Source: Candidatus Saccharibacteria bacterium CG_4_10_14_0_2_um_filter_52_9
GTDB lineage: Bacteria > Actinomycetota > Acidimicrobiia > Acidimicrobiales > RAAP-2
NCBI GenBank assembly: GCA_903970515.1
Contig: CAJCJA010000042.1
Span: 1-45,025, forward strand
Direction of reading: 5' to 3'
Length of the DNA: 45,025 nt
The notes under the pieces were generated by a model. It ran no database searches. It saw only the letters and a list, made by a program, of their open reading frames with translations, and was not told the origin of the DNA. Positions 42,444 to 45,025 of the stretch are shown here, piece by piece. Each line of letters starts with the position of its first letter. Position 1 is the first letter of the stretch. Position numbers and translations under genes: made by a program.

Positions 42444-44129
<1,686 letters not shown>

Positions 44130-44150
44130 CTAGTAGACAAAACGAGAAAC

Positions 44151-44176
44151 AAAAAACCCCCGCCAAACGCGGGGGT
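44151..44176 (-). terminator. Intrinsic terminator (attenuator) in the leuA leader
   Basis: An 8-bp perfect GC-rich stem (44156-44163 with 44169-44176), a 5-nt loop and a run of six T on the - strand. It lies 34 nt before the leuA start and 23 nt after the leader peptide stop. It is the strongest terminator in the window and lies upstream of leuA, so it must be conditional. Confidence 0.85.
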
Positions 44177-44179
44177 GAC

Positions 44180-44199
44180 GGACGAGAACGATCTCGCCC
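44180..44199 (-). promoter_or_regulatory. Second leuA leader hairpin
   Basis: An 8-bp stem with one G-U pair (44192-44199 with 44180-44187) and a 4-nt loop. Its first base is the last base of the leader peptide stop codon, so a ribosome at the stop or on the Leu codons would melt it. It does not overlap the terminator stem, and I could not find a clear antiterminator pairing. Confidence 0.6.
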
Positions 44200-44234
44200 T
44201 ATCGAAGAAGTAGCTCGCTCTGGCAGTTGTTCAC
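44199..44234 (-). CDS. leuA leader peptide (11 aa)
   Basis: A GTG-started reading frame encoding MNNCQSELLLR. Three Leu codons in a row (CTA CTT CTT) end just before the stop and the leader hairpins. This is the layout of a transcription attenuator that senses charged tRNA-Leu. The predicted mRNA start falls on the G of the GTG, so the peptide would be translated without a ribosome-binding site. Such leuA leaders have been described in actinobacteria. Confidence 0.8.
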   Translation of the reverse strand: MNNCQSELLLR

Positions 44235-44240
44235 GTTTAC

Positions 44241-44269
44241 ATTGTACAGTCCTTTCGCTCCGTGTCCAA
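44241..44269 (-). promoter_or_regulatory. leuA promoter (-35 TTGGAC, 17-nt spacer, -10 TACAAT)
   Basis: The -35 (44264-44269) and -10 (44241-44246) are near-consensus for the housekeeping sigma factor with the ideal 17-nt spacer. The transcript would start about 7 nt past the -10, at position 44234, the first base of the leader peptide. It is the best promoter I can find in the window. Confidence 0.8.
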
Positions 44270-44286
44270 TGAATTCAGGAAGTAAC

Positions 44287-44448
44287 GTGGCGTCCATGGG
44301 CGCCTTCAAAGCAGTCAAGAGATTCCTTTTCCTCTCGGTACTCCTTTCGGTGATCGCGAGCGTCGTCGCGACGATGAAACAAAACAAATCGAGCGCGCCG
44401 ACGTCATACGAAGAATGGCCCGACGTTCCCCAAAATCCTGAGGCGTAA
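44287..44448 (+). CDS. Small single-TM protein
   Basis: 53 aa: a short basic N-terminus (MGAFKAVKRF), one TM helix (about 14-30), then a polar tail ending SYEEWPDVPQNPEA. It recalls the actinobacterial DLW-39-type small membrane proteins with a Trp/acidic tail, but the match is loose. GTG 44287 has GGAAG upstream. It is divergent from leuA and lies 32 nt before an aldo/keto reductase gene. Confidence 0.55.
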   Translation: MASMGAFKAVKRFLFLSVLLSVIASVVATMKQNKSSAPTSYEEWPDVPQNPEA

Positions 44449-44480
44449 AGCCCTTACACCTGTCCCAATAAGGAGAAATC

Positions 44481-45025
44481 ATGGCTGCAATGGAGTATCG
44501 CCGACTCGGTCGCTCGGGATTACGCGTGAGCGTGTTGTCGTTCGGTAGTTGGGTAACGTTCGCCAACAACGACCAACTCGCAACCGCGAAGCAGGCGGCG
44601 GAGTGTCTAAGCGCCGCCAAGGACGCGGGTGTCAACTTCTTCGATAATGCGGAGGGCTACTCCGCGGGCGAGTCCGAGCGAGTCATGGGCGCCGCATTTC
44701 GAGAACTCGGTTGGAAGCGCCACGAATACGTGGTGTCCACCAAGTTGTTCTGGGGCCTCTACGACGTGCCCAACATGAAGAACACCCTCAATCGAAAGTA
44801 CCTCTCCCAGGCGATTGACGGCTCGCTCGAACGATTTGGACTGGATTTCGTGGATCTAGTGTTCTGTCACCGCCCCGACGCAAGGACGCCGATCGAAGAG
44901 ACGGTTTGGGCAATGAGTGACATGATCGCGCAAGGAAAGGCCCTCTACTGGGGAACGTCCGAATGGAGCGCCGACGAGATTCGCGCCGCCTACGACATCG
45001 CCGATCGCCACCACTTGCACAAGCC
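44481..45025 (+). CDS. Aldo/keto reductase, Kv-beta type, cut by window edge
   Basis: The first 181 residues are visible. It starts [17 protein letters not shown] with an AAGGAG ribosome-binding site. The tetrad is in place: Asp and Tyr in [12 protein letters not shown], Lys in STKLFWG and His in VFCHRPD. The [16 protein letters not shown] segment matches voltage-gated potassium-channel beta-subunit-like reductases. The C-terminus lies outside the window. It differs from the reductase at 36486, so it is not a recent copy. Confidence 0.93.

Follow-up and report, generated by a model that had tools for sequence, protein, structure and literature searches.

A candidate leucine-responsive attenuator upstream of leuA in Acidimicrobiia, with a predicted leaderless leader peptide and a stop-anchored hairpin abutting the terminator

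In the window, the whole stretch of 45,025 nucleotides of DNA analysed here, leuA is preceded by a short leader that is probably best explained, taken as a whole, as a leucine-responsive, ribosome-mediated attenuator with a leaderless leader peptide, in which a hairpin at the stop codon (P1) abuts the terminator (T) and would serve as a steric antiterminator. The parts of this statement differ in strength. We consider it very likely that the element is a leucine-sensing attenuator, for which we infer the leucine response and the direction of the switch; the step in which P1 acts sterically on T is put forward tentatively, and since the whole combines these two parts, it is graded between them. 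The leaderless geometry, the Leu codons, the conservation and covariation of P1 and T and the lack of a competing fold come directly out of the computation.

The leader is encoded on the minus strand. It occupies the gap that separates leuA (44117-42444) from a small, divergently oriented plus-strand ORF (start 44296), and its parts follow one another as promoter, leader ORF and two hairpins:

44263-44268, minus strand: -35 box TGGACA (promoter scan and direct reading; recurs in relatives)
44241-44246, minus strand: -10 box TACAAT, 6 nt 5´ of the GTG (promoter scan and direct reading; recurs in relatives)
44199-44234, minus strand: leader-peptide ORF, VNNCQSELLLR and stop, predicted leaderless (reading and conservation in relatives)
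44205-44213, minus strand: candidate regulatory Leu codons CTA CTT CTT, one codon 5´ of the stop codon (Leu conserved in relatives)
44180-44199, minus strand: hairpin P1, the proposed sensor, 8 bp (folding, covariation)
44151-44176, minus strand: intrinsic terminator T, stem of 8 bp, loop of 5, six T (folding, terminator scan, covariation, recurrence in relatives)
44121-44131, minus strand: purine-rich AGGAAAGGAAG, likely the leuA ribosome-binding site (direct reading)
42444-44117, minus strand: leuA, 2-isopropylmalate synthase, 557 aa (NCBIfam)

All elements claimed in an earlier note on this DNA (promoter, GTG frame, hairpin, terminator and leuA) were found on this strand. The promoter is a strong match as claimed, TGGACA-16 nt-TACAAT agreeing with the consensus at 10/12 positions, and it is the sole promoter-like site found in 44000-44500 (mean of 0.3 in shuffles); the -35 box needs correction, the best one being TGGACA at a spacing of 16 nt and not TTGGAC. 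The leader ORF reads GTG AAC AAC TGC CAG AGC GAG CTA CTT CTT CGA TAG, with the GTG at 44234. A hairpin is present at the stop codon, with the refinement that P1 overlaps the codon by one base, the first base of P1 being the third base of the stop codon. After 3 nt the hairpin of T follows (44176-44156), ending in T6 (44156-44151); this strong terminator with six T before leuA is the sole terminator-like site found in 44000-44500 (shuffles: mean 0.4). The folding energy of 44200-44145 is -31.6 kcal/mol compared with -16.6 in shuffles (z -5.3). The LeuA of the window is recognised by NCBIfam models PRK03739.1 (E 2.1e-263) and TIGR00970 leuA_yeast, both over the cut-off. The divergent small ORF (44296-44448, plus strand; MGAFKAVKRFLFLSVLL...YEEWPDVPQNPEA, 50 aa) begins at a distance of 62 nt from the start of the leader. 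Twelve genus relatives were read at the corresponding position for WP or hydrophobic words: 9/12 have small hydrophobic proteins with a WPxVPxxP ending, and two more have ones that end in WPDxAxK.

The same arrangement recurs in related genomes. LeuA matches were obtained in 49/61 near genomes (E<=1e-100) and in 118/296 genomes of the class (E<=1e-150); among the matches listed, the best eight named contigs are from Acidimicrobiaceae or Acidimicrobiales MAGs, and lower ones bear titles such as Actinomycetes, Acidobacteria, Chloroflexi and Proteobacteria. From these titles the class is taken to be Acidimicrobiia. In a first detection, 192/218 upstream regions showed a leader with two Leu codons close to its stop codon, where P1 is located, plus a second hairpin; the 26/218 loci without the element include two that are truncated and four with Proteobacteria titles. 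Since this detection demanded LL near the stop codon, it is circular with respect to Leu conservation and was repeated without a reading-frame criterion, searching for the hairpins and the U-run only. The frame-free search recovered the tandem of P1, T and U-run in 163/202 unique leuA upstream regions, with 39/202 lacking it. In all 163 tandem loci a stop codon starts between -6 and +2 of the P1 base, in 101 of them at -2, which puts the start of P1 on its third base, and it is preceded by Leu at codon -2 in 159 (98%), at codon -3 in 161 (99%) and at codon -4 in 146 (90%). CTG, CTT, CTC, CTA and TTG are all used, so that the amino acid and not the codon is conserved. The Leu codons, on whose conservation in related genomes the earlier note had made its reading depend, are thus kept with synonymous variation.

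The spacing of the parts is narrow as well. In 115/174 leaders the first base of P1 coincides with the last base of the stop codon, one codon separates the Leu run from the stop codon in 143/171, and the linker from P1 to T measures -1 to 4 nt in 156/174, with a median of 2 nt. If P1 and T are extended maximally, they share bases in 19/174 leaders and abut exactly in 58/174; because the search for T started 1 nt before the end of P1, a larger overlap becomes visible only by this extension. Duplicates, i.e. a public contig and a second genome of one species, were common, and identical stretches were removed for the counts of -10 spacing, geometry, the frame-free search and the forbidding of T, in which close relatives remain. 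One genus relative (G022, locus L024) has a close leuA with no leader element found upstream. Two MAGs titled Gammaproteobacteria (L105 and L106) have leuA after a Leu-rich ORF and a terminator-like hairpin, with no P1 at the stop codon; the Leu-rich ORF also looks leaderless (in L105: TAGGAT, 7 nt, ATG).

The GTG at 44234 lies six nt past the -10 box, so transcription is expected to start on the start codon itself, and translation of the leader peptide from the 5´ end of the mRNA is predicted from this promoter spacing. A -10-like box located 4-8 nt 5´ of an in-frame ATG or GTG is present in 97 out of 177 unique leaders, compared with 0-5 in each of 20 shuffles, and the spacing is 6 or 7 nt in 85 of the 97. 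Because shuffling also destroys start codons, the spacing profile over all 275 in-frame starts is the better control: spacings of 6 and 7 nt stand out with 50 and 37 boxes, and the other spacings hold 9-12 each (8-10 nt), 7 (1 nt), 5 (4 nt) or 0-3 (all others). Leaders with no -10 box by this spacing rule number 80/177. A -35 match of at least 4/6 accompanies 67 of the 97 leaderless-type leaders, compared with about 13 in shuffles, and it is TGGACA in 31. An SD-like word stands upstream of 15/97 starts, in DNA preceding the predicted mRNA start.

Both hairpins are supported by covariation. In a MAFFT alignment of 72 diverse leaders (A1), the pairs of P1 and T are standard pairs in 92.1% of the cells, a percentage biased upward since the 75 leaders initially picked were selected for good P1 and T scores; L143, L200 and L215 were dropped from these by hand because the first detection had misplaced T. 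Changes on both sides in at least one sequence were seen for 16/21 pairs of P1 and T, and cells with such changes number 139, compared with 33.6 in shuffles and 14-48 in slid controls. RNAalifold without a given structure returned the helices of P1 and T and no others. The stem of P1 has a GGCGAG-like consensus, and its loop carries the word CACAT in 36/171 leaders, in class members outside the genus (e.g. L062, L071 and L167). Pairing of the P1 loops with the T loop, downstream sequence or the leader is not above that of randomly dealt loops, and none of these pairings accounts for CACAU.

The recurring loop word and the stem consensus would suit a binding site for a protein or another trans factor that causes readthrough of T, the site being removed by a ribosome on the stop codon; for the LEU element of actinomycetes, a protein has been suggested by Seliverstov et al. 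in the available part of their article (PMC1262725). The loop word is, however, not common to all leaders, the loops in the genus of the window being unrelated to it in the rows inspected, and the P1 stem covaries, and we regard such a factor as quite unlikely.

To follow the structures along the path of the ribosome, RNA was masked as by a ribosome and partition functions were computed for five states in 192 leaders. T has a mean pairing probability of 0.94-0.95 in all five states, and in each state its probability is below 0.5 in about 3% of the leaders. Mean pairing of P1 depends on the A site: it falls from 0.97, when the A site is still 12 nt short of the stop codon, through 0.42 at 6 nt to 0.00 on the stop codon itself. 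In this prediction P1 forms while the ribosome is at the first Leu codons, and it is opened once the ribosome occupies the stop codon.

Several features of a classical attenuator are present: a short leader ORF whose codon run specifies the product of the pathway (also a feature of the LEU element), an intrinsic terminator between leader ORF and gene and, in the folding prediction, a structure (P1) that forms on stalling and is masked at the stop codon. An antiterminator that shares bases with the terminator and excludes it was not found in the masked foldings or in the column covariation. If T is forbidden, the energy penalty is at least 14.4 kcal/mol for every one of 171 leaders and in all three ribosome states considered. 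In the column covariation of 149 leaders, the strongest complementary covarying columns are T and P1 themselves, and none of the 45 listed pairs links a P1 arm or the leader to a T arm. A classical antiterminator was rejected on this basis, the masked partition functions speaking against it and the covariation giving it no support, and since this feature was sought and is lacking, we do not file the element as a classical attenuator, though it would work like one. The earlier note had failed to see the expected antiterminator pairing and suspected a departure from the trp-type scheme; masked folding, covariation and the forbidding of T led to the same result on the first point and support the second. 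A trp-type attenuator whose antiterminator was missed, for instance a pseudoknot or a shift by a few bases, is accordingly improbable in our view. Direct reading shows that, in some members of the genus, P1 contains a GGGCG that could also pair with the basal CGCCC of T, and a few weak complementary column pairs join the linker with the T 3´ arm and, in two cases, the leader with P1 (scores up to 0.112); against this stand the energy cost of removing T, the lack of listed pairs between P1 or leader and T, and the P1 loops, which pair no better than random ones.

We likewise rejected a mechanism suggested for S. aureus ilv-leu, in which the U-tract would pair with sequence lying 5´ of T. The mean of this pairing is 0.10, 0.19 and 0.18 across three states and lowest where the ribosome is stalled, which leaves a pairing of the S. 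aureus type unsupported. Before the T 3´ arm emerges, the T 5´ arm pairs upstream with 0.24 if the ribosome is on the stop codon compared with 0.05 if it is 12 nt before, and the U-tract does so with 0.18 compared with 0.10. As modelled, such transient pairing runs opposite to what antitermination by a stalled ribosome would require. By thermodynamics alone, transcription would terminate at whichever of the tested positions the ribosome stands. This prediction would also fit an unregulated terminator through which a constant share of transcripts passes, the short peptide having no regulatory role. Such an absence of a switch is, however, very improbable given the conserved Leu identity with synonymous variation, the fixed spacing and the match between leader codons and the product of the downstream gene. 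Furthermore, the ORFs of the window upstream of leuA read away from it, so T is not simply the end of an upstream gene's transcript.

How would a ribosome then control T? According to the model we favour, RNA polymerase would transcribe the leaderless ORF first and P1 next. A shortage of leucyl-tRNA would stall the ribosome on the Leu codons, and P1 would form directly in front of it. With ample leucine, the ribosome would move on to the stop codon, its footprint over the P1 5´ arm would hold P1 open, T would form and transcription would end before leuA. In classical logic a structure behaving like P1 prevents termination, and P1 is therefore proposed as the antiterminator; as P1 and T share few or no bases, it is proposed to act by its position. 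P1 would be a rigid helix 0-4 nt from the base of T, hindering the closing of the last pairs of T in the RNA exit channel. An early departure of the ribosome from the stop codon would let P1 re-form, so the model requires the ribosome to stay in place during the synthesis of T. An additional role of P1 may be to pause RNA polymerase, giving the ribosome time to catch up.

Such pausing could be the whole function of P1. Pauses in the his and trp leaders hold RNA polymerase until the ribosome arrives, and if P1 were only a pause hairpin, the polymerase would be halted inside the T 5´ arm and the kinetics of coupling between transcription and translation would set termination or readthrough. A UGYG motif, which we take to resemble the pause consensus, is placed so that its Y lies 11-12 nt past the P1 3´ end in 54 instances among 164 unique leaders (a count made without a shuffled control), and 11-12 nt is the distance for hairpin-stabilised pauses. 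Of 117 leaders not of the CCCCGC type, 87 hold (Y)CCUG, the next base being a pyrimidine in 76 and then G in 73, although the Y is bulged in T. On the other hand, the G and CC after this Y also pair in T, the T 5´ arm in the genus of the window is mostly CCCCCGC, the motif is not general, and a pause by itself leaves the origin of readthrough unexplained. A role of P1 in pausing only is therefore rather unlikely, and the steric model, tentative as it is, is the one we retain.

The element is not confined to the type of leuA found in the window. A covariance model (R1), whose training set includes the window sequence, matches this site with E = 5e-11; it is the sole match reported in its own genome at E<=1, where 120 of 1861 first-look candidates were scored, and the site is thus not due to chance. 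At E<=0.01 R1 finds the element in 180/296 genomes of the class, a number that includes weak matches (e.g. G114, 0.0051) and misses some elements, 16 candidates having been scored per genome; genome G321 has the element by the first detection (L119) and no R1 match. Twenty further R1 matches were fetched, with their leaders chosen by a rule requiring Leu, Ile or Val: 16 class loci not located before a LeuA of the window type (PRK03739/TIGR00970) and 4 outside the class but in the same phylum, the latter from six matches with E below 1e-6. By sequence reading, 15/16 class loci precede another LeuA subfamily, three of them named as PRK00915/TIGR00973 type by NCBIfam; the sixteenth (L251) was read in a wrong frame and is excluded from the count of downstream genes. 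Outside the class, one leader ending in SLLLT and stop (L257) precedes leuS, and three ending in SIVLR, LVLIT and VVVVVLVT precede ilvB. In this small set of fetched loci, the identity of the leader codons thus appears to follow the product of the downstream gene.

Two genomes (G139 and G170) have strong R1 matches before both LeuA subfamilies (loci of the other subfamily: L241-L256), suggesting that the leader persists across gene replacement or duplication. The window's own genome also contains an ilvB (L261, contig C52) with a leaderless-looking GTG leader, VTFQNILLSVVVGAWRR followed by stop, with Ile, Leu and Val codons; read by eye, a CCGGUA/UACCGG hairpin spans its stop codon and a terminator follows directly. 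R1 does not detect this leader. R1 gave 0/20 matches in leuA upstream regions from outside the class. Rfam 15 at the gathering threshold gave 0 matches in 12 loci, including the window leader (L001), one leuS and three ilvB leaders; the best sub-threshold match in 43000-45025 of the window is anti-hemB, with 20.2 bits compared with 49.5.

Textbook attenuation is based on two mutually exclusive folds that share bases, and the layout described here shows no such overlap. It is widespread in the class, with a regularity at the stop codon close to a single nucleotide, and the choice of sensor codons fits the regulated gene's product. Should the layout be a switch, the ribosome would gate the terminator solely through the neighbouring hairpin, and the working mode of actinobacterial leuA leaders would become testable. 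It is conceivable, though doubtful, that there is a family of amino-acid attenuators without antiterminator pairing, in which a hairpin anchored at the stop codon of a leaderless peptide abuts the terminator and, unless covered by the ribosome, blocks its closing by position; members of such a family would control leuA in the class, and in further branches of the phylum they would control leuS and ilvB.

Among the papers listed in a literature search that covered few subscription journals, none was seen to describe the Acidimicrobiia element, nor a hairpin anchored at a stop codon and abutting a terminator. The portions consulted of PMC1262725, PMC8079986, PMC4046766, PMC11857589 and PMC13236596 already describe Leu-codon leader peptides upstream of actinobacterial leuA, as well as the LEU pseudoknot and attenuator peptides that are leaderless. 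In S. lividans, the leader peptides of leuA (MRFGLLLLSCRGEGL) and leuS are located on leaderless transcripts according to the available text (PMC8079986), and a leaderless Leu peptide before leuA is therefore not new in itself. The leuA of S. lividans is without a typical terminator, whereas here a terminator directly follows.

A close parallel before leuA is the LEU element of actinomycetes (PMC1262725, in part), where a Leu run in a short ORF is likewise followed by a conserved structure. For the LEU element, the available text proposes a pseudoknot together with a stem that involves the ribosome-binding site of leuA, in contrast to the hairpins found here. Indirect tests gave no sign of a LEU-type pseudoknot in our leaders, the P1 loops having no excess pairing and R1 matching 0/20 regions outside the class; one fold computed for 44212-44118 of the window pairs UUCUUC with GGAAGA, a possible counterpart of the LEU base stem that joins the Leu codons to the leuA ribosome-binding site. 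A point against our model is that Seliverstov et al. 2005 cite changes in the leuA leader peptide of S. coelicolor that did not fit classical attenuation and conclude, in the part available, that changes of the Leu codons are without influence on leuA regulation there (PMC1262725).

Among systems with a terminator, the ilvBNC attenuator of C. glutamicum resembles the present leader in having a leader peptide by the mRNA start, branched-chain codons, a nearby hairpin and a terminator; in the available text (PMC11857589) its antiterminator and terminator share a GCC trinucleotide, whereas P1 and T share bases in only the minority of leaders given above. The S. aureus ilv-leu leader has a Leu-rich peptide followed by a terminator, and its proposed antiterminator spares the T stem, as described in the accessible portion of PMC5794164; there it is proposed to pair with the poly-U tail, whereas here no pairing of the right sign was seen. 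LeuL2, the leuS leader of S. lividans (MRAVRLLLSEPR; PMC8079986, in part), shares the leaderless Leu peptide, the hairpin and the U stretch. The leuS leaders of Streptomyces are located before leuS and are called a classical candidate attenuator with an antiterminator in the text available (PMC1262725), unlike the leader described here. The leaderless poly-Cys ORFs of mycobacteria (Canestrari 2020, as cited in the accessible text of PMC13236596) are also leaderless, amino-acid-sensing short ORFs, and differ from the Leu element in responding to cysteine and in using translation attenuation. Finally, in M. tuberculosis ilvB1 a short ORF (with LVVI codons) precedes a structure that prevents termination and is masked by a ribosome on the stop codon, much as proposed for P1; the excerpt of PMC13236596 calls antiterminator and terminator mutually exclusive there, whereas P1 and T lie side by side.
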